NCBI GenBank assembly: GCA_030041985.1
Contig: JASIAM010000117.1
Span: 1 to 32,773 of the forward strand
Origin: Bryobacteraceae bacterium
GTDB lineage: Bacteria > Acidobacteriota > Terriglobia > Bryobacterales > Bryobacteraceae
Direction: 5' to 3'
DNA length: 32,773 nucleotides
The translations under genes were made by a program, and so were the position numbers. This document shows, in pieces, positions 10,129 through 22,970 of this stretch. The notes beneath the pieces were generated by a model, which ran no database searches, was not told the DNA's origin, and saw only the letters and a list, made by a program, of their open reading frames with translations. Within the stretch, counting starts at the first letter, position 1, and each line of letters starts with the position of its first letter.

Positions 10129-12449
10129 TGAGCATCGCGCTACTGCCTTTCCGTGCCGCATCGTTTGTCGTCTGTGCCGCATCGCTTGCCTTCGCCAACG
10201 CGGGCGTGCTTCTGCCCGGCGATAAAGAGCAGCCCGATCCCGCAATCTTTTCGCTGAATGAAATGACCGTCGAGATCGTCATCGATAACGGCACGGCCCG
10301 CGTCCAGATCCATCAGATCTTCGAAAACCACACGGCCCTTCCACAGGAAGGCACTTACCGCTTCGCGCTCCCCGCCAAGGCCACCATTTCCGATTTCGCC
10401 GTGTGGGAAGATGTCACACGCATCCCCGGTGTGATTCTGGAACGCCGCCGCGCTGGCGAAATCTACGAGGAGTCCAAAGCGGAGGCCATCGATCCCGGGC
10501 TGTTACAAATGGGCGAGCGCGATGCCGATGAAGCCAGCCGCAGCCAGGAATTCTCCGCCAAAATCGTTCCCATCCCCGCGTTCGGCACCAAGCGCATCGA
10601 AATCGAATACCAGCATCCCGTAGCTGTCGAGAATTATCAATCCGAATTGGTGGTCCCGCTCAAGCCCGATCTGTATGGGGTGCAAACGGCTGGACACCTC
10701 TCCGTCACCTTCGAGCTGCGCTCCGGGCATCCGCTCGCGGACTTCCGCGCCATGGCCAAATCCTATCCACTCCAAATTCGCGAGCGAACGCCCAACCTCG
10801 TGAAAGCCGATTTTTTCGCCGATAACATCCCGCTACGAGAGGATCTGGCCGTTCGCTACACGCTCGACCCCGCGGCTGCCGATACCTTGCGCGTGATCAC
10901 CGAACGCGAGGCGCCGCAGGAACCGGGCTTCTTCCAAGCCGCGGCCCTTTTGCGCGGCGGAACCCCGCAGCCACAAGCTCCCCAGGCCACACGCACGATC
11001 GTGCTGCTGTTCGACAATTCCCTGTCCATGCAATGGGACAAGCTGGAGCGCGCGTTTGCCGCTTGCGAAGCCGCGCTGCGCCGTTTGAAACCGCCCGATT
11101 CCTTCAACGTCCTCTTATTCAATTCCGAAGTGACCGCATTCGCGCCGCAACCGCGCCCGGCGATCCCTCAGAATATCGAGCAGGCGCTCGATTTCATTCG
11201 CAACAGCCGGATTCGCGGCGGCACCGATCTGCAAAAAGCGCTGGGCGCAGCCCTCACGCAGTCCACCTCGGGCGACCCCTACCTGCTCCTCATCAGCGAT
11301 GGCGGCGCGACTGAAGGCGCAGTGCAGAATGCAAAGCTCGCCGCATGGTATACCGCCGAGTGGCGCAAACATCCGCTCGCGAAACGGCCGCGCACCCTGG
11401 TCTTCGGTGTGGGCGATGATGCCAATCAACCGCTGCTCAAAATGCTCGCCGCAAACAATGGCTTCTTCGAATGGGTCCGCTCGACCGAACCGATCGAGTT
11501 CAAGCTCAACGCCTTTCTGGATAAGATCGGCCGCGAGCCGGTGAAGAATCTCGGCCTGACTCTCACGCCCGCCGCCGATTTCGATCTGGTGTATCCGCTC
11601 GAAGACGTGCGTTTCCCAGGATCTGTGGCCTCCTGGGCCGGCCGTTACAAAAAGCCCCTGGCCGATGCAGCCTTCACCGTGCGCGGCGTGTCCGGCCGCT
11701 CGCCGCTCTCGATCTCCACCAAAGCAGCTCTGCCCGAAACCTCCGCGGACCACCCCTACCTTCCGCGCACCTGGGCCAAAGCACGCGTGGATGCCTTGCT
11801 CGAAAAAATCGAGCGCGATGGGGAAGACCGCGCCTCGATTGATGAAATCATCCGCCTCTCCAAGCAGTACAAATTTGTAACGCCCTACACTTCGTTTCTG
11901 GCCGTACCGCGCGCTTTGCTGCGCCCCCGCGTCATTCGCCCCGGAGATCCCGTGCTACGCGTCAAGACGGACGAATCCATCGTCTCGGTCATTGCCTTGT
12001 TCCCCTTCGGTCTTATCAAGCCCTTGCGGTATCTGCAAGCCGAGAACACCTGGCAGGCGCGCTTCCTCGCCCCCGCCGATCTCGCCGATGGCGCCTATCA
12101 AGTCCGGCTGATTCTGCGCGATCACGATGGCCAGGTGTACCGCGAAACAAAGAGCTTTGTAATTGCAAGCAAAATTCCCACGGTACGCGCCCGCCTGGAT
12201 AGGGCACGCGTCCGCCCCGGAGACACCGTGCGCATCGCGGCCGAGGTTTCTTCCAACGCGCGCACCATTACCGCGCGCCTCTACGGAACACTGCCCATTC
12301 AACTTCACTGGAACAGCGCCGCCCGCGCCAACATCGGAGATCTTGATGTGCCTCCGAATCTGCAGCCCGGCAAATACGCCATTCACATTACCGCCGAAGA
12401 TATCGCGCACAACATCGGCACCGAGGAGGTTTCCCTTGAAGTCTGGTAA
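10128..12449 (+). CDS. VIT and von Willebrand factor A domain protein
   Basis: This 773-residue exported protein starts with a signal peptide (about residues 1-24, ending AFANA). A VIT domain follows (about 35-175), with the typical VEIVIDNGTARVQIHQIFEN and a YRFALP segment. The vWA domain begins near residue 290; its metal-binding MIDAS motif is D296-N-S298-L-S300 and a GGTDL motif supplies the threonine. After about 470 come a helical stretch and two likely immunoglobulin-like beta domains at the C-terminus, ending in IGTEEVSLEVW. VIT+vWA proteins in bacteria are extracytoplasmic and are thought to bind proteins, but few have a proven role. It overlaps the propeller gene by one base and the TPR gene by 14 bases. 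Confidence 0.88.
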   Translation: MSIALLPFRAASFVVCAASLAFANAGVLLPGDKEQPDPAIFSLNEMTVEIVIDNGTARVQIHQIFENHTALPQEGTYRFALPAKATISDFAVWEDVTRIPGVILERRRAGEIYEESKAEAIDPGLLQMGERDADEASRSQEFSAKIVPIPAFGTKRIEIEYQHPVAVENYQSELVVPLKPDLYGVQTAGHLSVTFELRSGHPLADFRAMAKSYPLQIRERTPNLVKADFFADNIPLREDLAVRYTLDPAAADTLRVITEREAPQEPGFFQAAALLRGGTPQPQAPQATRTIVLLFDNSLSMQWDKLERAFAACEAALRRLKPPDSFNVLLFNSEVTAFAPQPRPAIPQNIEQALDFIRNSRIRGGTDLQKALGAALTQSTSGDPYLLLISDGGATEGAVQNAKLAAWYTAEWRKHPLAKRPRTLVFGVGDDANQPLLKMLAANNGFFEWVRSTEPIEFKLNAFLDKIGREPVKNLGLTLTPAADFDLVYPLEDVRFPGSVASWAGRYKKPLADAAFTVRGVSGRSPLSISTKAALPETSADHPYLPRTWAKARVDALLEKIERDGEDRASIDEIIRLSKQYKFVTPYTSFLAVPRALLRPRVIRPGDPVLRVKTDESIVSVIALFPFGLIKPLRYLQAENTWQARFLAPADLADGAYQVRLILRDHDGQVYRETKSFVIASKIPTVRARLDRARVRPGDTVRIAAEVSSNARTITARLYGTLPIQLHWNSAARANIGDLDVPPNLQPGKYAIHITAEDIAHNIGTEEVSLEVW

Positions 12450-15400
12450 ACACGGTGCGGCCGCACTGGGAGCCGTCCTCTTCGCCGCCGCCGTCCTGCA
12501 TAGTCAGGTTCCTTCGTGGGCCGAACGCGTGCCCGCAGGTGCCATGCTCCGCGCTCTGTTTCGCAGCGTTCCCATGCCGGGAGGCGCAGTTTTCATCCGC
12601 CGTCCGCCCGTCGAAACGCGCCACGAGATCACTGGCCTGATTGCATCCCAGCCGCGCGGTGCTGAACTTTACCGCGCCCGCGCCGAGGAAGACGAGCTGG
12701 CGCTCGATTTCGCGGCTGCCGAGGCCGACTGGAAAACCTACGCTCAAGACGCGAGCAATGCCTACCAGGCCCAAGTCGAGCTTGCCGATTTTTATCATCG
12801 CCGCATACGCCCGCGCGATGAAGTGGTGGCACTCACCGCGGCAGCGCAAGCGAAAGACGATCCTCTGAAGCCCGCCACCGCGCAGCGGGCCTGGCAGGCA
12901 TTCGAACGCATGGCATCGGTAATCGAAGGTGATGGGCTTCCCGTGTTCACGGCCATTTCGGTGTATCGCACCTGGGCTGCGCGCTATCCCAATGAACCGC
13001 AGGCCGGGCAGCGCCTCGTTACGTATCTAATCGATCACCGCCAGTTCGCTGCCGCCGAACGCGAAATTTCCCGCTACGCCGCAACTTTCCATGACGGCTT
13101 GTACGCCGTTAGGGAGCGTGCCGAGTTGGAGTTGCGCCGCGGCTTGCCCGATGCCGCCATCCGCGTCTACGATGCCGCGTTTCAACCCCTCTGGCCCGAT
13201 GACATGGCCGCTGCCTATTTCAAGCTGCTCGAAGATCAGGGCCAACTGCGCGAATTCGTGGGCAACGCGCGTACCGCGCTTGCCGCCAACCCCACAGATC
13301 TGAACGCGGCCGCGCGCCTGTATCACTACTTCCATTCGCAAAACAACACCGCCGCCGCCCGGCGCGTGCTGCTCGAATATCGCGCTGCCAAAGACTCACG
13401 CAAAGAAGTCTGGAGCGCGAGCGATCTGGAGACGATCGCGCAATTATTCGCGCTTCTGCCCGACGTCAACGAAGCCGCCCGCGCTTACTATGCCCTCTAC
13501 AGCGTGCCGCCGTCCTCGGGAGAGCACGTCCAACGCGCGCTCGCCGGCATAGCCAATTTGCTACTGAACTCTTCCTCCGCCCCCATCGCGTTCGGTTCGG
13601 GCGATCTGTCCTTTTACAAAGACATCGCCACTATCGACCTCTCTCCCGGGTTCCTGAACGGCATCCTTTCTCTGCTATTCAACGGCACCGGGCCACGCTC
13701 GCAATATCTGCAACAGAACCAGAAGGCGCTGGCGTGGTTTCATCAGGCCGCCGCCAGCCAGGTAGTGGCGCTTCTCGAACAGCGATTCCCCAACTCCGCG
13801 TACCGTGATGGCCTGCGCGCCCGGCTCATTTCCGCGTACGCTGCTTATGGCGACGACGATGAAGTCATTCGCGCCGGCCGCGCTTATTTGCGGGCCTTTC
13901 CCCGGTCCGCAAACCGCTTGAGTGTAGCCCTCGAAATGGCCGACGCGCTCGCGCGGAAAAATCAGGTCTCGGAAGAGTTCGCCCTCTATGATCAGTTCCT
14001 CCGGGAACTGGCGTCGCAGGCTTCCGGTGTGCCGATCGGCGGGGGCATCGTCAAAGGAGAAGCTCAGGCCCGTTCGCCCGATTATGTTCGCGTGCTCGAT
14101 CGCTACCTCTCGCGCCTGGTTGCCAGTAACCGCATCGTGGATGCCCTGCAGGTGTATCGGACCGAGCTCGATCGCAACTCCAACGATCCCGGTTTGTATG
14201 AACGCCTGGCCGCCTTCCTCGAGCAGCACGGCGCGGCGAGCGATGTGGCTGCTATCTATACCCGCGCCATCGCCAAATTTCCCGATCGCTCCTGGTATCA
14301 CAAACTCGCGCGCTGGTATCTGCGCACGCGCCAAGCGAGCGAATTTGAAGCCATCAGCCGGCGCGTAGTTTCCATTTTCTCGGGAACCGAACTGGAGCAG
14401 TACTTCGCCGAAGTGGTTTCCCAGACCGCGCCCGATGCGGCACTCTACCGCCAACTGAACCTCTACGCACACCAGCGCTTTCCCCAGGACTTGGTATTTG
14501 TGCGCAACCTGATGGCGGTTTACGCCCGCAAAGAAACCTACGACGCCGCTGCTTCCGGCCGTCTTCTGCGCGAGTATTGGTTCTACGATCCATCCCTGCG
14601 CACACAGTTTTTCGCCGGATTAGCACGCCAGCGGCGCCTCTATACCGAACTGGCCGCGGTGCGCAAGGCCAATCCCGATATCGTTGCCGGGCGCTTCGAC
14701 CGCGTAGCCGCCGCCAATCCCGCCGCCGCCCAGTTCGCCGCCGAAGCCGAAGGCTGGCTGTCGCATTTCGAAGCCGCAGCCCCGGCCGCTCGCGCGCTGG
14801 CCACAGCCTATCCCGGCAACCGCGAATACACGGGGCGGGCCGCTTCGCTCTACCGGTCGCTAGCCGCCTACGATTCGAGCAACACGGAAATAGCAGCCAC
14901 TCTCGCCCAATCCGAGTACCAGGCCCAGCCGCGCGATGCCGAGGGGCTCGCCAAAATCGGCGACATTTACGCCGACCGGCGCGACTACGCGCGCGCCCGT
15001 CCCTTCTGGAACCGCATGCCGGATGCCCAGCCCGGCAAAGCCGAAGCCTACCTCGACGCAGCCACCGTCTTCTGGGACTATTACCTGTACAACGATGCGC
15101 TCCACATGATTCGGACCGCGCGGAAAAAATTCGCGCAGCCCGCTCTCTTCGCATATCAGGAAGGCGCTATCGACGAAAACCTCCGTGATTACCGCGCTGC
15201 CGTGGACGCTTATGTGACTGGTGCAATCGCGGGGGACATGCAATCAGAAAGCCGTCTGATTCACCTTGCCGCGCGAACCCAAACGCGCGACCTGGTGGAA
15301 CGCGCCACAGCGCAAGCCGTCTCTACGGACTCCGCCTGGCCTGCCTTGTCCGTGCGCATCGCCGTCCTCGAAGCCCAGCGGCGTCGCCCCGAGTTGCAAT

Positions 15401-18400
15401 CCCTTCTCGAGTCGCGCATCCCCGTGGAGAGCTCGGCCGCCGATCTGAACCGTATCGCAGAAGCTGCCGCCCGCAATGGCTTCGATACAGTGCAGGAAGG
15501 CGCTACCGAGCGATTAGTCGCCATCACCAACGATCCGGTCGACAAAATGCGGCTGACGCTCGACCTCGCCCGCCTTTACGAATCGAAAAAAGACCTCGTC
15601 CGCGCCGGGGCAACGGTTGACGCTCTCTACCGCGCCAACCCGGCAATCCTTGGAGTAGTCCGCGGCGCGGTCGATTTCCATGTCCGCAATCAGCAATATG
15701 CTGCAGCCATCGCCATCCTGCTCGAGGCCGCCGGGCGCGCCCGTCCCGACTACGCCGGCCAGTTCACTCTCGAAGCCGCGCACACCGCCACCGATGCCGG
15801 CGAGTTCAATCAGGCCCGCTCCATCCTCGGCGGCTTGCTCGCAGCCGATCCCTACCGTCCCGAATACCTCTCTGCCATGGCCGACACCTATCTGCGCGCG
15901 CAGGACGACCGCGGATTTCGCGATTACCAGCTCTATGCCATCGGCCGCATGAAGCAGTCCGGTTTGCCTCCTGCCACCGAGACAGCCGCAATTGCCGGCA
16001 TGCGCCGCAGCCTCATTCCCGTCCTCACGCGCATGGGCGATTTCGCGGGCGCAACCGAGCAGTACATCGAAGTCTTGAACCGCTACCCCGAGGACGAAAC
16101 GCTAACCAAGGAAGCCGCCTCCTACGCCGTCGCTCACAACCGCACCGCGCAACTGGTGAGTTTCTACCGGCAAACCATCAACAACGCCCCGCGCGATTAT
16201 CGCTGGCCCATTGTGCTCGGACGGATCGAAACAGTTGCCGAGAATTACCCCGCTGCCATCGATGCCTACGAACAGGCTTTGAAAGCGCGGCCCGACCGGC
16301 CCGACGTGCTTCAGGCCAAGGCGGGGCTGGAAGAGCGCCTGTTGCGTTTCCCCGAAGCCACAGCCAGTTACCGCCGGTTATACGACCTCACCTACCGCGA
16401 CCCGCAATGGCTCACCAAAGTAGCTGAGCTCGAAGCCAGGCAGGGCCAGTCACAGCAAGCCGTTCGCGATTTGCAAGCTGCCATCATCGGTGCACGCAGC
16501 GAGACCACCGAAGCCGACTTCTCGATCGCCGGCTACCTGGAATCGTGGCATCTGTTACGCGATGCCGTCAGCTTTGCGGATCGTGGCGCGCGTCTGGCAA
16601 GCAAGCTCGAAGGCGATGACCTGATAACGTATACGCGCATCCTGATGCTCGCCCGGCGCGCGGACGACGTCCTTAGTGGGGTCAGGGCTTCGGCTCTGCC
16701 GCAGGGCTTCGGCCCGGCGTCTACCGCCGGAGAAATCGTCGCCACCTACTACACGCCCGAAGAGAAGGTGCGCTTCGAACAGGCCCTCGTCGCGAAAGCC
16801 GCCAGTATGCAACGCGTCGAACGGGATCAGCTTCTGCTGCCGCTCGTCTCCTCCGCCGGGCTCGCAGACCTGGAATCGCGCTGGCGCTACGAGTCCATGG
16901 CGGCCACTCGAATCGTCGATCCCCGATTCGTCGAACTCGAATCCGCGCGCGCCACCTACGGCGATCTGGGCCGCCAGTTGGAACAATTCGCTGCGCAGAA
17001 CGCCGGGCGCGAAGCGCAGTCGGGCGCATTCAATGCGGCCGCCCAAGCATATTTCGACGATAACGATTCGGGTGGCCTGTCGCGCGTGCTACGCAGTGGT
17101 CTGGCTTCCGGACCTCAGCTCGATCGTTACTTCGCGCAGCTCGCCGCGGGCCGGCCGCAGGAATTGATGGACATTATCCGCACTACGCGGTTCCGCACCG
17201 TAGCCGATCGCGCCATTGAGGCCGCAATCGCCACTGACCATCCCGATTTGGCAATCGCCGCCTTGCGCGAGAGCGGACGTTCCCTCGGCCCTCTCTGGAC
17301 CAATGCCTATACGGCCCTGACCGGTGTGTATTTCGACGACCGCAGCGCCCCCGTCGCCAATGCGTTTACGGGCATTCTCGATACGCGCACCATCGGTGAG
17401 CGCCTGCGGACGCCGCCCGCTCGCGATCAAATGCTGACGGGACCGGTGTGGTTCTACTACGCTGCGCGATTCGGTGAGTACCTCGAGCGCGCCTCGAATG
17501 CCGATGCCCAAATATATCTGCCGGCATCGCTCGAAGAAGCTCCCGGCAATGCCAACGCCTACCTCGCCCTGGGAGATTTTTACGCGCAGGCTGGACAATC
17601 GGCCAAGGCCATCGCGTCCTACGAAGCCATGCTCCAGTTTGATCGCGATCGCGGCGATGCTTACGATCACCAGGCGCGTGTGCTGTGGACCCAAGGGCGG
17701 CGCGCCGATGCCATCGCCCAATGGCATTACGCCTTCGCTGCTTTCTTGCGCGTCGAAACCCGCGGCGTTCGCGTGCCCGACGCTTTCTGGCGTCAGTTCG
17801 CCGAGACCGTTACCGATCTTGGCCAGCGGCGCGTCCTCGCCGATTTGCGTCTGGATATCGAAAATCTGCTCCGGCAGTACATCCGCATCAACGGCGATTA
17901 CCGCCTCGCCGAATTGCTCGAGGCCACGGCGCGCGCTTCGCTCAATTCCGGCGACGGCTTGGACTGGCTGCTCGCGCTGGCTCGCGCTACCGATTCGAGC
18001 GACCAGGTGATTTTCGCGGTCATGCGCCTTCCCAACTTGACCGCTGCGCAACGCATCAGCCTGCGGCGCGCGGAAGTCACAATCGCCGCCGAACGGGCCA
18101 GCGCCGCCTATGGCCCGCAGCGCGAATACCTGGAGGGCAACGAGGTGGCCCAGCGCGTTCAGTTGATTTCTCTCCTGCTCGACGCGGGTGATGTAACCGC
18201 AGCGACGGCGGAGTGGCAGAACATCCCGCAGGCATTCAAAGACGAGACCAATCCCAACCGCCGCATGTTGGACGAGGTGGAGATCCGCCTGGTCGCGAAA
18301 ACGGGGACGCTCTATCGCTTGCTCGAACGCTATCGGGCAAAGCCGGACGCAGCGCCTCCCCAATCTCTTCTGAGCGACATCGCACTTCGCCTTCGCCAGA

Positions 18401-19422
18401 ATGGAGATCCGCAAACTGCGCAGGCACTGCTCGATTTCCTCTACGACCGCGAACTGCAGCGCGGCAACCTGAGCGCGGCCAATTTTCTGGGTCTCGCCGA
18501 AGTGCGGCTCGAACAACAGAATGCAGCACAGGCCGTGGCGCTGCTGAATCGCATGGTGCTGGTCACGGACAATGCATTTGACACGTTCGTGCCCGCGGCG
18601 GAACTGCTCCAGAAATACGGCCGAACCGCGGAAGCGCGCGATTTTCTGACGAGGGCCGTGCGCGCCATCCCCTGGAATGCTCCTGCGCGCGTTGAACTCG
18701 CTCGCCTCGAACCAGCTTCGGAGCGCGAACCGCTGCTTGCAGCCGCCCTCGCCGATTCGCAAGCGCCCTATTCCGAGAGAGCGCGCGCCGCACGTCTCTA
18801 CCGGAGCCAGCCGGTGGCGGCCGTCGCCGGCACGGAACTGGCTGTGCTGTCCTCGCCCAACATCAGCGCGGCTGCCGCCCGAAAACCGTATTTTGTCGAA
18901 GCTCGCCTGGCCGCTGCTGCTGCAACATCCGATACCGCCGTTCGCCTGGCGTTATTCCGCGAAGTCTTGTCCATTTCGCCGGAAGACGAGCGGGCACGCC
19001 TCGGCGCGGTCCAATCGGCGATCGCATCGGGGCGCGATAGCGTCGCGCTGGCGATGGCCCAAGCCTTGCCCTTCATCAGAGGACAGCAACCCAACGTATA
19101 CATTCGGCCTGGAAGATTCTATAGACCTGTTCGACGCCCCATCACTTCGGTACAACCGATAGAAGCGGACCAAGCTTCTCTATTGGAGTCGCTCTCCACG
19201 GCGGCCGAACGCCTTGGCGATTTGCCGACCGCGCAAAACTATCTGCGCGCCGCCATCAACCTGCTGCCGGCGAACCAGCGCGGTGAACAACAAACCAAAC
19301 TGAAAGCAATCGCCGCCGAGCAATCGCGCCGCGCCGCCAATACCGCGCGCAGGCCCATCATTCAGCAATCGGTCGAGCAGAGACAGGTTGTCCGGCCTGA
19401 AATCCAAAGGAGCGCACAATGA
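12436..19422 (+). CDS. Giant secreted TPR-like repeat protein
   Basis: This 2328-residue protein starts at a TTG (12436) six bases after GGAGG and inside the end of the VIT/vWA gene. Its N-terminus (KSGKHGAAALGAVLFAAAVLHS) is a signal peptide or anchor. Nearly all the rest is helical repeats of the tetratricopeptide kind, recognisable from units such as NANAYLALGDFYAQAGQSAK, YPAAIDAYEQALKARPDRPD and PEYLSAMADTYLRAQDD, with many more degenerate copies. TPR arrays form extended superhelical scaffolds for protein binding, so a periplasmic or surface scaffold is the likely role. The C-terminus is basic and rich in Arg/Gln. No enzymatic motif was seen. The next gene overlaps its stop as ATGA. Confidence 0.85.
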   Translation: MKSGKHGAAALGAVLFAAAVLHSQVPSWAERVPAGAMLRALFRSVPMPGGAVFIRRPPVETRHEITGLIASQPRGAELYRARAEEDELALDFAAAEADWKTYAQDASNAYQAQVELADFYHRRIRPRDEVVALTAAAQAKDDPLKPATAQRAWQAFERMASVIEGDGLPVFTAISVYRTWAARYPNEPQAGQRLVTYLIDHRQFAAAEREISRYAATFHDGLYAVRERAELELRRGLPDAAIRVYDAAFQPLWPDDMAAAYFKLLEDQGQLREFVGNARTALAANPTDLNAAARLYHYFHSQNNTAAARRVLLEYRAAKDSRKEVWSASDLETIAQLFALLPDVNEAARAYYALYSVPPSSGEHVQRALAGIANLLLNSSSAPIAFGSGDLSFYKDIATIDLSPGFLNGILSLLFNGTGPRSQYLQQNQKALAWFHQAAASQVVALLEQRFPNSAYRDGLRARLISAYAAYGDDDEVIRAGRAYLRAFPRSANRLSVALEMADALARKNQVSEEFALYDQFLRELASQASGVPIGGGIVKGEAQARSPDYVRVLDRYLSRLVASNRIVDALQVYRTELDRNSNDPGLYERLAAFLEQHGAASDVAAIYTRAIAKFPDRSWYHKLARWYLRTRQASEFEAISRRVVSIFSGTELEQYFAEVVSQTAPDAALYRQLNLYAHQRFPQDLVFVRNLMAVYARKETYDAAASGRLLREYWFYDPSLRTQFFAGLARQRRLYTELAAVRKANPDIVAGRFDRVAAANPAAAQFAAEAEGWLSHFEAAAPAARALATAYPGNREYTGRAASLYRSLAAYDSSNTEIAATLAQSEYQAQPRDAEGLAKIGDIYADRRDYARARPFWNRMPDAQPGKAEAYLDAATVFWDYYLYNDALHMIRTARKKFAQPALFAYQEGAIDENLRDYRAAVDAYVTGAIAGDMQSESRLIHLAARTQTRDLVERATAQAVSTDSAWPALSVRIAVLEAQRRRPELQSLLESRIPVESSAADLNRIAEAAARNGFDTVQEGATERLVAITNDPVDKMRLTLDLARLYESKKDLVRAGATVDALYRANPAILGVVRGAVDFHVRNQQYAAAIAILLEAAGRARPDYAGQFTLEAAHTATDAGEFNQARSILGGLLAADPYRPEYLSAMADTYLRAQDDRGFRDYQLYAIGRMKQSGLPPATETAAIAGMRRSLIPVLTRMGDFAGATEQYIEVLNRYPEDETLTKEAASYAVAHNRTAQLVSFYRQTINNAPRDYRWPIVLGRIETVAENYPAAIDAYEQALKARPDRPDVLQAKAGLEERLLRFPEATASYRRLYDLTYRDPQWLTKVAELEARQGQSQQAVRDLQAAIIGARSETTEADFSIAGYLESWHLLRDAVSFADRGARLASKLEGDDLITYTRILMLARRADDVLSGVRASALPQGFGPASTAGEIVATYYTPEEKVRFEQALVAKAASMQRVERDQLLLPLVSSAGLADLESRWRYESMAATRIVDPRFVELESARATYGDLGRQLEQFAAQNAGREAQSGAFNAAAQAYFDDNDSGGLSRVLRSGLASGPQLDRYFAQLAAGRPQELMDIIRTTRFRTVADRAIEAAIATDHPDLAIAALRESGRSLGPLWTNAYTALTGVYFDDRSAPVANAFTGILDTRTIGERLRTPPARDQMLTGPVWFYYAARFGEYLERASNADAQIYLPASLEEAPGNANAYLALGDFYAQAGQSAKAIASYEAMLQFDRDRGDAYDHQARVLWTQGRRADAIAQWHYAFAAFLRVETRGVRVPDAFWRQFAETVTDLGQRRVLADLRLDIENLLRQYIRINGDYRLAELLEATARASLNSGDGLDWLLALARATDSSDQVIFAVMRLPNLTAAQRISLRRAEVTIAAERASAAYGPQREYLEGNEVAQRVQLISLLLDAGDVTAATAEWQNIPQAFKDETNPNRRMLDEVEIRLVAKTGTLYRLLERYRAKPDAAPPQSLLSDIALRLRQNGDPQTAQALLDFLYDRELQRGNLSAANFLGLAEVRLEQQNAAQAVALLNRMVLVTDNAFDTFVPAAELLQKYGRTAEARDFLTRAVRAIPWNAPARVELARLEPASEREPLLAAALADSQAPYSERARAARLYRSQPVAAVAGTELAVLSSPNISAAAARKPYFVEARLAAAAATSDTAVRLALFREVLSISPEDERARLGAVQSAIASGRDSVALAMAQALPFIRGQQPNVYIRPGRFYRPVRRPITSVQPIEADQASLLESLSTAAERLGDLPTAQNYLRAAINLLPANQRGEQQTKLKAIAAEQSRRAANTARRPIIQQSVEQRQVVRPEIQRSAQ

Positions 19423-21176
19423 AACGCACCTCGGCTCATCGCCCAGCCACCGACTCCCGGCCTTTGGCCTTTGCCCTGAAACGCGCCATCGTGCTTTTGA
19501 TTTTGCTGCTGGCCATCGCCGGGTATTTCTTCCTGCAAACGCAGACCCGGCAAAACCTCGCTCAGTGGATGCCCGGCGGCGCGCTGCTGTATCTCGAGTC
19601 GCCCGATTTCGGAAGCCTCCTTCGCGAGTGGAATGCTTCGAGCGTGAAATCCGGCTGGCTGGCCAGCGCGAATTACGAAGTTTTCAGCCGCACCAATCTT
19701 CTGACAAAGCTTTCGGAAGTTTACCAGCAATACGGCACAGCCGCCGGCTTCCTTCCCGATCTTCAGAAAACGCTCGGAATTGCCGGCACGGAATCTGCAT
19801 TGGCCTTATACGAAATTCGCGAAGTGGAATTTCTGTACGTCACCAAAATAGGCGAAGCGCAACTCGCCAAAAGCCAGCTTTGGGCGCTGCGTGACCGTTT
19901 CGAGCAACGCCAGGCGGGCGGTGTCCCCTTCTATCTCCGCCGTGATCCCGAATCCAAACGCACGGTGGCGTTCGCGTTCACCAAAGGGTACCTCTTCCTC
20001 GCCACCAGAGACGACCTGGTCGCGCGGGCACTCGCTCTGGTCGCGGGAGGGCAGGACCCCAGCATCTTTTCGGAGCGCTGGTATCACGAGGCCACCGCAG
20101 CAGCGGGTTCCGCAGGCGAGTTGCGCCTCGTACTGAACCTCGAATCGCTGTTGAAGAGCGGCTACTTCCGGTCGTACTGGATTCAGCGCAACGCTTCCTC
20201 CATTCGCCCCTACTGGACCGGAATTGCGGACGTTACGCGCTCGCGCACCGCAATCACGGAAACGCGCGTCTTTCTGCGCGATTCAGAAACTGAATCGGCC
20301 GCGCCACTCGAAGTCTCGAATCTCGTGGGACTGGTTCCTCCGGATGCCGGCCTCTACCGGTTTTCCATTCGCCCCGCTCCCTCTGCTGCGGCCGCCTTGA
20401 TCGTGCAGAAGCTGATGGCTTCGGCCACAACGGCGCCAATCGACGAGCGCTTTGCCCCTGTTGCGATCGCCTTGGATGCGCGCGCAGGAAGCGAAGCAGA
20501 TCTCGAAACCCGCATCGACGAACCGCCGCTTCCGGCTGAAGACGCGCGAGGCGCGGCAGCCGCCACACTCCAAGCCATGTTGGAGAGCAACCGGCCCGTC
20601 GCGATGCTGGAACTGCAATCGAGCGTTGCCGCCGGTGGCACGTTCGTACAAACTCCAGCGGTCCTTGTGTTCGAAGGACCGGCCGAATGGGGTGCGAGCG
20701 TAGTGCAGCCGGCGCTCACCGCCGCGGTAGCGCCTTTGTGGACCAACTCCGGCTTGGGCGCAGCTTGGGTGCCGGCAACCGTGGGGCGCCAATCCGTCGA
20801 GCGCCTCAATGGTCTGGGAACGCTGTTGTACGCCATCCGTGGAAAGCTGCTCTTCATCGGCAATGACCCAGTACAACTCGCAGCAACACTCGATCGCATA
20901 GGCGCGGGCACTCAAGCCCCTGCCGGCCTCACCTACGCGGCAGGCTTCCACCACGCGCGCGAAGCGGCCAATTTCGAGCGCATCATGAACGCGCTGGATT
21001 TTTCCACGCCTGGCGGGAATCAATTCTTTCCAGTTCGCGAAAACGGTCCCGCATTTTTCTCGGCGAACCTCGCCAGCTTGAGCCGTGTTCTGTCTTTCGT
21101 GACCGGAGTAGCGGTCAACGAAGAGCAGTCCGGTATTTATACCAGGCAGCAAATCGTATATACAGCAGTGCCTTGA
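19419..21176 (+). CDS. Single-pass membrane protein, DUF3352-like
   Basis: This 585-residue protein has a short basic cytoplasmic start, one strong transmembrane helix (about residues 24-41, IVLLILLLAIAGYFFL) and a large extracytoplasmic part. The start of that part, WMPGGALLYLESPDFGSLLREW, and later stretches such as YLFLATRDDLVARALALVAG resemble DUF3352-type proteins; I am only moderately sure of this link, and the family has no known function. It begins four bases inside the TPR gene (ATGA) and is the last gene of the operon. The coupling suggests it is made in fixed ratio with the scaffold and may be its membrane partner. Confidence 0.7.
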   Translation: MKRTSAHRPATDSRPLAFALKRAIVLLILLLAIAGYFFLQTQTRQNLAQWMPGGALLYLESPDFGSLLREWNASSVKSGWLASANYEVFSRTNLLTKLSEVYQQYGTAAGFLPDLQKTLGIAGTESALALYEIREVEFLYVTKIGEAQLAKSQLWALRDRFEQRQAGGVPFYLRRDPESKRTVAFAFTKGYLFLATRDDLVARALALVAGGQDPSIFSERWYHEATAAAGSAGELRLVLNLESLLKSGYFRSYWIQRNASSIRPYWTGIADVTRSRTAITETRVFLRDSETESAAPLEVSNLVGLVPPDAGLYRFSIRPAPSAAAALIVQKLMASATTAPIDERFAPVAIALDARAGSEADLETRIDEPPLPAEDARGAAAATLQAMLESNRPVAMLELQSSVAAGGTFVQTPAVLVFEGPAEWGASVVQPALTAAVAPLWTNSGLGAAWVPATVGRQSVERLNGLGTLLYAIRGKLLFIGNDPVQLAATLDRIGAGTQAPAGLTYAAGFHHAREAANFERIMNALDFSTPGGNQFFPVRENGPAFFSANLASLSRVLSFVTGVAVNEEQSGIYTRQQIVYTAVP

Positions 21177-21182
21177 TCTACT

Positions 21183-21300
21183 AAAAAAAGCCGGACCGAT
21201 GATCCTCCGACACACCGATCCGGCAGTGTCCACAGGGAGGAAGCTCCCCGATCGGACACCCTTCCAGGGCACGCCTTGTGCCACAGTAGCTCAGGCAGCA
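21183..21300 (-). ncRNA. Candidate small RNA with intrinsic terminator
   Basis: Read on the minus strand, three hairpins follow one another. The first pairs GGCAC with GTGCC around AAGGC (21282-21268). The second has an outer GTGTCC/GGACAC stem enclosing a perfect GGGAG-CTTC-CTCCC hairpin (21259-21226). The third is a 12-pair stem (21224-21190) followed by seven T (21189-21183), a textbook intrinsic terminator. Two of the 12 pairs are G-U on the minus strand but would be C-A mismatches on the plus strand, so the minus orientation is favoured. An extended -10 (TGATATAAA) at 21315-21307 predicts a start near 21300 and an RNA of about 118 nucleotides. No open frame is apparent. I could not match it to a known family. 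Confidence 0.6.
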
Positions 21301-21306
21301 AGCCGT

Positions 21307-21315
21307 TTTATATCA
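21307..21315 (-). promoter_or_regulatory. Extended -10 promoter for the candidate small RNA
   Basis: On the minus strand the bases read TGATATAAA, a TGn extension followed by a near-consensus -10 hexamer. No -35 element is present at the usual distance (GAGAGC is found there), which extended -10 promoters can tolerate. Transcription would start around 21300. Confidence 0.4.
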
Positions 21316-21366
21316 AGTATTCTCCTGCAGCTCTCCACCTTTCCCGCGGCTGGCCGCGCGCCACGT

Positions 21367-21396
21367 TGTGTCCATTCTGTCAACTTTGTGGACACA
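21367..21396. promoter_or_regulatory. Inverted-repeat operator candidate before the GAF-AAA+ regulator
   Basis: TGTGTCCA at 21367-21374 and TGGACACA at 21389-21396 form a perfect inverted repeat with eight-base arms and a 14-base spacer; the arm centres lie 22 bases (about two helical turns) apart. It ends 29 bases before the regulator's ATG and just upstream of a TATAGG -10-like hexamer at 21405-21410. This geometry suits binding by a dimeric Fis-type regulator, possibly the gene's own product. Confidence 0.45.
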
Positions 21397-21425
21397 TGAC
21401 ACACTATAGGGTTAGACTCGCGAGC

Positions 21426-22970
21426 ATGGGAGATCTGGCGCAGGCGGACATTTACGGTAAGCTGCCTGAAATTTTGGCAATTTCGCAGAAGATGAATTCG
21501 GAGCGGGACCTGGGGCCGCTGCTCGACCTCATGGCGCGCGAAGCCACCAGTCTGCTCGATTGCGACCGCGCCAGCATCTTCCTCCTGGATCGGGAAAAGC
21601 ATGAATTATGGTCGCAAGTTGCGCTGGGCAGCGACCAGATTCTCCGCTTTGATGCGCGCCTCGGGGTCGTGGGGCATGCGGTCACTACAGGGGAAACCGT
21701 CAATGTGGGGGACGCGTATCGCGACCCCCGTTTTTATAATGCCTTCGACGATACCAGCGGCTATCGCACGCACAGCCTGTTGGCGGTGCCGGTACGCAAC
21801 CAGCGTGGGGAGATTGCCGGCGCCTTCGAGGCCCTCAACAAGCATTCCGGAACGTTCACCTCGCGCGACGAGGCTTGCCTGGCGGCGCTGGCTTCGCAAG
21901 CCGCTGTCGCTATCGAGACGGCCCAGTTGGTGGGATCGCTCCGCCGCAGCCAGGACGAGCTGACCCAGCAGAACGGCAATCTTCTGCGCGAAGTGGAACG
22001 GCACTATTCGACCCACGGCATCATTTGCGCCGGTATGCGCATGCAGCAGATCGTCCGGCTGATCGAGCGGATTCGCGACAGCTCGGTCAGCGTGCTGATC
22101 ACGGGCGAAAGCGGCACCGGAAAGGAATTGGCGGCCAAGGCGATTCATTACTCGAGCGCGCGCTCCCGCAAAACGTTTGTGGCCTTGAATTGCGCGGCCC
22201 TCCCGGACATGCTGATCGAAAGCGAACTGTTCGGGATTGAAAAGGGCGTGGCCACCGGCGTGGAATCGCGCATCGGCCATTTCCAGAAAGCCGATGGCGG
22301 CACTTTATTTCTGGACGAGATCGGCGATCTAAGCCTTCCCGCCCAGGCCAAGATTCTGCGCGTGCTGCAGGAACAAGTGGTGGAGCGGGTGGGCGGAAGG
22401 TCCTCCATTCGGGTTGATGTGCGCGTGCTGGCAGCTACCAATAAAGACCTGGTGGCGGAGATCGGCAAGGGCGCCTTTCGCGAGGACCTGTTTTACCGCC
22501 TCAACGTCATCCACGTTCACATGCCGCCTTTGCGGGAAATTCGCGAGGAGATTCCGCTATTGGCGAATCATTTTTTGAGCGAATACGGAAAAGAATCAGG
22601 GCGCGGGCCCATGCGTTTCGCCCCGGAAATGGTGCGCAGCCTGGCTGCCAGGGATTGGCCCGGCAATGTGCGGCAATTGCGGAACGAAGTGATGCGCCTG
22701 GCCGCTTGCAGTTCCGGTCCGGTGATTGCGGATGATTATTGGGAGGGCCAGTGGCAAACCGTTCCTCCTCCTGCGCGCAGGCCCGAACCAGCGGCTGCGC
22801 CATCGCCTGTGCCACGCGGAACCCTCAAGCAGGCAATAGATGATCTGGAGCGGCGCATGATCGTCGACGCGCTGCAAACCACCCGCAACAACCAGCTTCA
22901 AGCCGCGCGGCAGCTCGGCCTGAGCCGCCAGGGCCTGATTAACAAAATGAAGCGCTACGGTTTGGGGTAG
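21426..22970 (+). CDS. GAF-AAA+-Fis transcriptional regulator with altered GAFTGA loop
   Basis: This 514-residue protein has the layout of a bacterial enhancer-binding protein. A GAF sensor domain occupies about residues 10-165 (LLDCDRASIFLLDREKHELW, then VGHAVTTGETVNVGDAY). A AAA+ domain follows, with Walker A GESGTGKE at 227-234 and Walker B FLDEIGD with D297/E298. A Pro/Ala linker leads to a C-terminal Fis-type helix-turn-helix ending QAARQLGLSRQGLINKMKRYG. The loop that normally reads GAFTGA and touches sigma-54 is GVATGV here (residues 274-279), lacking the key phenylalanine, so it may not act through sigma-54. The ATG at 21426 is preferred; a start at 21396 is also open. No receiver domain or partner kinase is nearby. 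Confidence 0.88.
   Translation: MGDLAQADIYGKLPEILAISQKMNSERDLGPLLDLMAREATSLLDCDRASIFLLDREKHELWSQVALGSDQILRFDARLGVVGHAVTTGETVNVGDAYRDPRFYNAFDDTSGYRTHSLLAVPVRNQRGEIAGAFEALNKHSGTFTSRDEACLAALASQAAVAIETAQLVGSLRRSQDELTQQNGNLLREVERHYSTHGIICAGMRMQQIVRLIERIRDSSVSVLITGESGTGKELAAKAIHYSSARSRKTFVALNCAALPDMLIESELFGIEKGVATGVESRIGHFQKADGGTLFLDEIGDLSLPAQAKILRVLQEQVVERVGGRSSIRVDVRVLAATNKDLVAEIGKGAFREDLFYRLNVIHVHMPPLREIREEIPLLANHFLSEYGKESGRGPMRFAPEMVRSLAARDWPGNVRQLRNEVMRLAACSSGPVIADDYWEGQWQTVPPPARRPEPAAAPSPVPRGTLKQAIDDLERRMIVDALQTTRNNQLQAARQLGLSRQGLINKMKRYGLG

Follow-up and report, generated by a model that had tools for sequence, protein, structure and literature searches.

Csr/Rsm RNAs such as CsrB and RsmZ carry repeated GGA motifs exposed in hairpin loops, and the usual motif of CsrA is ANGGA. 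In Pseudomonas, the enhancer-binding protein CbrB controls CrcZ, an RpoN-dependent small RNA (sRNA) that titrates an RNA-binding protein. In the Vibrionaceae, the sigma54-dependent sRNA Qrr1 lies opposite and adjacent to the gene of the enhancer-binding protein LuxO in 20 of 21 taxa, with two activator sites (PMC10162802). For Desulfovibrio vulgaris, the targets listed for enhancer-binding proteins likewise include noncoding RNAs near the activator gene (PMC4641369), and Acido-1, Acido-Lenti-1 and Solibacter-1 are described as noncoding RNA candidates of Acidobacteria (PMC2864571).

Here we analyze a locus within a window of 32,773 nucleotides (the whole stretch of DNA that was analyzed) from a Bryobacteraceae bacterium. 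The computation supports an RNA structure and its strand, a promoter motif, a palindrome, and synteny; expression, activation by the neighboring regulator, and action in trans are what we infer. We consider it likely that the locus encodes a sigma54-dependent RNA of ~77 nucleotides (nt) under the control of the adjacent activator; the sRNA family is probably new, though its kind of regulation is known.

The likeness to LuxO-Qrr1 lies in a sigma54 motif before the RNA and an oppositely oriented neighboring enhancer-binding protein gene, both present here in the sequence; the candidate activator sites here are recurrent palindromes upstream of the promoter. In contrast to LuxO, which carries a receiver domain, the activator here is a one-component GAF protein with a GVATGV loop, and the Qrr Rfam model gave no match at its gathering score in the window or at 20 relatives' loci. 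CrcZ has CA motifs for Hfq/Crc, whereas the RNA here has GGAG loops. The resemblance to the Csr/Rsm RNAs consists of GGA predicted to lie in exposed loops, repeated here in some copies; the differences are a CGGAGG rather than an ANGGA context, control by sigma54, and retention in three genomes without detectable CsrA. The D. vulgaris RNAs, from another phylum, are alike in their layout near an activator, as judged from their description. Acido-1 and Acido-Lenti-1, which the earlier note on this DNA had named as families to compare, were not matched in Rfam; Solibacter-1, for which the table of PMC2864571 gives no Rfam accession, lay outside the comparison. Among the matches listed in a literature search that left subscription journals mostly outside, no sigma54-controlled sRNA was reported in Acidobacteria.

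RESULTS

A 77-nt RNA is predicted on the minus strand

A leftward sRNA had been proposed for this intergenic region in the earlier note. Three findings favor this proposal, namely, a strand bias in folding, compensatory changes among relatives, and a minus-strand sigma54 motif, and a minus-strand sRNA predicted at 21183-21259 is very probably real; it is shorter, and under a different promoter, than first read. Its parts are as follows.

21183..21259, minus strand: predicted sRNA, 77 nt, with its start at 21257-21259 and its 3' end at the U run (from the fold and the syntenic RNA in relatives)
21226..21259, minus strand: 5' hairpin of the RNA, GUGUCC...GGACAC (from the fold of the 77-nt RNA)
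21190..21224, minus strand: 3' hairpin, which is the terminator stem, with 12 pairs plus 3 above a bulge (from the fold)
21204..21209, minus strand: loop CGGAGG, in the model a GGAG tetraloop with a C-G closing pair (from the recurrence of GGAGG in relatives)
21183..21189, minus strand: U7 tract, intrinsic terminator (from the sequence)

The RNA start was placed by the spacing of sigma54 promoters, at which transcription begins ~12 nt past the GC of the -12 element. From this predicted start to the U run, the RNA folds at -45.8 kcal/mol with a z score of -5.74, which none of 200 shuffles equaled. The longer stretch originally proposed (139 nt folded) reached -63.9 kcal/mol on the minus strand (z of -3.8, 1 of 200 shuffles equal) and -46.3 kcal/mol on the plus strand (z of -3.0, 0 of 200 shuffles equal). 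The 12-pair stem followed by seven U's is present as claimed, at 21190-21224 and 21189-21183 of the minus strand. Since a simple terminator scan found 1 site where 0.8 was expected, the terminator feature alone is at chance level, which both the fold and the comparative data exceed. The stretch had also been said to hold no open reading frame, which does not hold literally: a stop-free minus-strand frame of 333 amino acids (20283-21284) crosses it, beginning upstream of the predicted RNA start and largely forming the antisense shadow of the gene at 19419-21176.

Rfam gave no match in the whole window. A relaxed search of 21100-21450 returned five hits at an E value of ≤10, the best at 0.17 and all far below their cut-offs (Acido-1 and Acido-Lenti-1 were not among them); suhB/mmgR scored 15.4 of 41 bits and SorX 16.6 of 46.6 bits, both under the gathering cut-off. 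At 20 relatives' loci, Rfam found one tRNA and nothing else.

Related predicted RNAs lie upstream of orthologous regulator genes

Orthologues of the adjacent regulator were collected by protein search (E ≤ 1e-170) from 25 of 237 genomes of the family, in 13 of 76 genera. A similarity search with the intergenic DNA returned many short, high-E pieces, of which only the piece pairs from genomes G002 and G004 were seen as syntenic; the core CGATGATCCTCCGAtcCACCG is common to these two and the window. Read on the minus strand, most upstream regions have the same order: palindrome(s), AT-rich block, sigma54 motif, and RNA. The relatives' RNA comprises an outer stem, AUCGGAGGC unpaired or partly paired, and an inner hairpin with the loop UCGGAGGA.

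The window copy, which looks like the most reduced of the family, has neither the outer stem nor the first GGAGG; it consists of two tandem hairpins, the inner one turned into a terminator with U7. This 3' hairpin is the counterpart of the relatives' inner hairpin, with a 21-base core common with G002 and G004 (2 mismatches). By eye, the U tract that directly follows it is absent from the relatives' sequences inspected and so seems peculiar to the window. The window copy matched the covariance model described below only partially (14.5 bits, E of 0.13), and a family-wide scan with the model missed it as well as the G002 and G004 copies. Because the outer stem and the first GGAGG are absent, its membership in the family rests on synteny and the core common with the two same-genus genomes.

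Sequence-only MAFFT alignments misalign the stems, and the covariance model (R1) was built from the inner 67 positions of seven sequences and tested on 18 held-out orthologous regions. Ten of these were found at an E value of ≤0.05 and four more at 0.10 to 1.3, all in the expected place and on the RNA strand; the held-out regions L065, L070, L071, and L072 gave no match at an E value of 5. Matches elsewhere start at an E value of 0.56. The family-wide scan matched 23 genomes, and the inspected set omits the weak matches in G001, G026, G065, G079, G137, G173, G181, G207, G209, and G233.

A copy in G247 (L089), found by the model alone, adjoins a cut-off regulator copy, accompanied by two palindromes and a sigma54 site with a score of 8. 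G254 has, besides its first copy, another one (L092 1463-1562, contig C200) with a score-7 sigma54 motif, beside an apparent remnant of the regulator gene; there, the RNA looks like it has outlived its decayed neighbor. Records of a Candidatus Solibacter metagenome-assembled genome (MAG) and a Terriglobia MAG (L103 and L104) also carry the RNA; since their model scores match those of L061 and L062 exactly, the genomes are probably identical or nearly so, and the two records were not treated as separate cases.

A second structured domain was seen ~100 to 220 nt past the predicted start, on the RNA strand, in 9 of 22 regions (L058, L059, L062, L066, L050, L069, L070, L073, and L074) and not in the window. 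By eye, it has interleaved helices (an H-type pseudoknot) with a constant CGGGCC/GGCCCG, followed by a GC-rich hairpin; the other helix varies yet stays paired (GAGGATG/CATCCTC, CGGAAGAT/ATCTTCCG, and CAGGGAATG/CATTCCCTG). Each instance is weak singly (1 to 7 of 60 shuffles were as good), so recurrence is the argument for this domain. Separately, in region L063 of G161, the sigma54 motif is separated from the RNA by a long inverted repeat rich in GC (GGTAGGCCTCCCGGCC..., RNA strand).

GGAGG recurs in the predicted RNAs

The 23 RNA stretches counted (all but those of G062 and G030, which were also omitted from the fold z scores) hold 43 copies of GGAGG, compared with 10.1 in shuffles (maximum, 20). 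Each has one to four, mostly one or two, and mostly in the context CGGAGG: at least one copy is present in 23 of 23 and at least two in 14 of 23. In 21 of the 23 RNAs, the GGA of one copy is unpaired with a probability of ≥0.7. The loop is recurrent rather than invariant, since G252, G195, and G005 lack the apical-loop copy and keep the internal one alone. This pattern suggests either a site for a CsrA-kind protein or a site for pairing with CCUCC.

The mode of action that we favor, at somewhat less than an even chance, is that the RNA titrates a GGA-binding protein, of which CsrA is an example. The organism's own genome encodes both Hfq and CsrA. CsrA was found in 22 of 25 RNA-bearing genomes (G030, G247, and the 23 above), compared with 147 of 212 others, and thus in 169 genomes in all; these are raw counts whose excess is phylogenetically confounded, and the co-occurrence supports titration weakly. 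G161, G250, and G030, which are 96 to 99% complete and keep the RNA (in divergent form in G030), had no CsrA over the cut-off in results listed to an E value of 10, so that CsrA is not the sole partner if those RNAs work.

The same sigma54-driven RNA could instead act by base pairing of its CGGAGG loop with CCUCC(G) in target mRNAs, helped by Hfq, a tentative possibility that the persistence of the RNA in genomes without detectable CsrA and the Hfq gene would both suit. Hfq-dependent sRNAs end in a U tract, as the window RNA does with its U7, and the recurrent hexamer is long enough to serve as a seed. Against pairing, a C-G pair closes the tight tetraloop in which the recurrent letters sit, and the occurrence of at least two GGAGG copies in more than half of the RNAs is as expected for a protein site.

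A sigma54-type promoter motif precedes the RNA

Two elements upstream of the predicted start bear on how the RNA would be transcribed.

21268..21283, minus strand: sigma54 promoter motif TGGCACAAGGCGTGCC, scoring 9 of 11 (same interval in relatives)
21305..21316, minus strand: AT-rich block, the extended -10 of the earlier note (TTGAAAATAAA-like in several relatives, by eye)

The scan required GG and GC within 111 to 171 bp of the regulator start, an interval picked after the motif had been seen. Minus-strand scores of ≥7, ≥8, and ≥9 were obtained in 23, 20, and 13 of the 25 orthologous regions, respectively, compared with 5, 3, and 1 on the plus strand of the same interval and with means of 3.4, 1.0, and 0.15 (maxima of 11, 5, and 1) in dinucleotide shuffles. 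In G030, a site scoring 7 and followed by a GGAGG hairpin lies farther upstream, outside the scanned interval; G062, which has the regulator and a one-mismatch palindrome, showed neither a sigma54 site nor GGAGG within 500 bp. The window motif, TGGCAC-N5-GTGCC, is nearly palindromic and scores 9 on the minus and 8 on the plus strand, so the window alone leaves its direction unsettled, while the relatives settle it as minus. RpoN is encoded in the organism's own genome.

Three consecutive hairpins had been read in this stretch. Two are in the RNA, whereas the 5'-most (GGCACAAGGCGUGCC) coincides with the sigma54 motif that recurs in relatives and is thus probably promoter DNA rather than RNA. 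The extended -10 sequence (TTGATATAAAAC at 21305-21316) is also present as described, but scanning the minus strand for sigma70-type promoters gave no hit. A sigma70 transcript of ~118 to 130 nt from this element, as first envisaged, would draw on TG-A-TATAAA on the minus strand and on the recurrence of the AT-rich block in several relatives by eye; given the negative scan, the prevalence of the sigma54 motif across the regions, and the less distinct fold of the longer RNA, we find it improbable. The AT-rich block is possibly a bending or IHF site.

Folding and covariation favor the minus strand

The minus-strand fold beats the plus-strand fold in 22 of 25 regions, the exceptions being G004, G195, and G062, and the mean z score is -3.0 on the minus versus -1.8 on the plus strand (minus more significant in 20 of 23). 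Two pairs of the window's terminator stem are indeed G-U on the minus strand and mismatches on the plus strand, and the strand argument built on them holds. Across relatives, alignment A5, which was fitted to the minus-strand model, contains 34 G-U cells versus 18 A-C cells.

Compensatory base changes in homologous regions, proposed earlier as a check, were found: across 18 RNAs, both partners change in 16 of 20 pairs, compared with 8.9 in shuffles (0 of 500 as high) and 8 to 10 with slid partners, in an alignment that was fitted to the model and contains related sequences, the window copy not among them. Alignments A5 and A7 omit L047 (the window), L051, L053, L065, L068, L070, L071, and L072, whose model match was weak or absent; L050, a partial match, is in A5 and left out of A7.

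A plus-strand cis element, i.e., a leader or attenuator of the regulator mRNA, would account for the conserved position upstream of the regulator, but it is highly improbable: plus-strand folds are worse in most regions, G-U pairs become A-C mismatches, and the element is separated from the start codon by promoter-like sequence.

The adjacent regulator and its candidate site

On the plus strand, a gene series ends with a gene of 585 amino acids at 21176 and is followed by the intergenic region, the regulator gene, and a lipoyl synthase gene. The elements of the regulator are as follows.

21426..22970, plus strand: enhancer-binding protein of 514 amino acids with GAF, sigma54 AAA+, and Fis-type helix-turn-helix domains (domain analysis)
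21389..21418, plus strand: sigma70-type promoter of the regulator gene, TGGACA-18-TAGACT (promoter scan; alike in relatives by eye)
21378..21394, no strand: palindrome TGTCAACTTTGTGGACA, candidate regulator site (upstream activating sequence; recurrence in relatives)

In 15 of 15 aligned orthologues, the sigma54-contact loop of the AAA+ domain is GVATGV, not GAFTGA, a departure that might weaken the sigma54 contact. The one precedent found for this loop in the literature search, D. vulgaris DVUA0100, is predicted to use sigma54 promoters (PMC4641369).

The palindrome consensus TGTCNAC-N3-GTNGACA was sought within 160 bp of the regulator start in the 25 regions: 13 have 0 mismatches, 21 have at most 1, two have two, and two have three. 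Second, weaker palindromes (≤3 mismatches), whose counts were read from the listing without a shuffle control, occur at a distance of 39 to 40 bp in nine regions and of 21 bp in three; three more regions have other spacings. The palindrome is probably the regulator's binding site, and its overlap with the regulator's own promoter means that the regulator probably controls itself too.

The organism's 6.0-Mb genome holds one perfect palindrome, that of this window, and six with one mismatch. Since the only perfect copy lies beside the RNA, the RNA and the regulator itself are the most obvious targets. The six one-mismatch loci gave nothing better than an E value of 0.41 with the RNA covariance model, and at four of the six, a sigma54-like motif with a score of ≥9 is either absent from the 300 bp downstream or wrongly placed on the other side. 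One further observation is that the one-mismatch palindrome at L185 293-309 (contig C38 of the same genome) has a score-10 sigma54-like motif 252 bp away and is a possible second target of the regulator.

The position of the RNA beside a regulator and a large operon had been taken to mean that it could act on one of them. The link with the regulator is strong, with the direction more likely that of the regulator acting on the RNA. The link with the operon was not borne out: two same-genus relatives, G002 and G004, keep the RNA and the regulator downstream of it with other sequence upstream, which argues against the operon as a partner. In G002, a different contig carries the homologue of the last operon gene, and none was found in G004. 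The last gene ends at 21176 and the hairpin starts 14 bases later, at 21190, yet a terminator or 3' stabilizer of the operon is the least probable explanation, the plus strand having no U run after the hairpin and the element staying with the regulator in both relatives. Elsewhere in the window, a stop-free frame of 2,419 amino acids (12163-19422) contains tetratricopeptide repeats and is lined up with frames for VIT/von Willebrand and propeller-type proteins.

DISCUSSION

The mechanism that we propose for the sigma54-dependent RNA is as follows. The GAF domain of the regulator would sense a signal, and a regulator hexamer would bind the palindrome at 21378-21394; in 12 of 25 regions, a second, weaker palindrome lies 21 or 39 to 40 bp away. 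The DNA between palindrome and promoter would loop, allowing the AAA+ ring to remodel sigma54 polymerase at 21268-21283. The RNA would be transcribed leftward, in divergent orientation to its own activator's gene, starting at ~21258 and ending in the U run at 21183. The regulator would also control itself through the palindrome overlapping its own promoter. Exposed GGAG(G) loops would then let the RNA act in trans; the likeliest mode is titration of a GGA-binding protein (CsrA, for instance), and base pairing to a CCUCC-containing mRNA is nearly as likely.

More speculatively, the RNAs may form a new sRNA family of Solibacter-like Acidobacteriota that is the near-sole output of the GAF/GVATGV activator and titrates a GGA-binding regulator. 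As part of that same tentative reading, such an RNA-activator pair could be a one-protein, nonproteobacterial counterpart of both LuxO-Qrr and Gac-Rsm.

If the proposal is correct, the regulator, promoter, binding site, and RNA would form a ready-made unit, and the activator-plus-sRNA switch would exist outside the Proteobacteria with an unrelated RNA. The locus would test whether activators with GVATGV, as opposed to GAFTGA, function with sigma54, and it would offer a route to finding what GGA-binding proteins or sRNAs act on in this phylum of soil bacteria.
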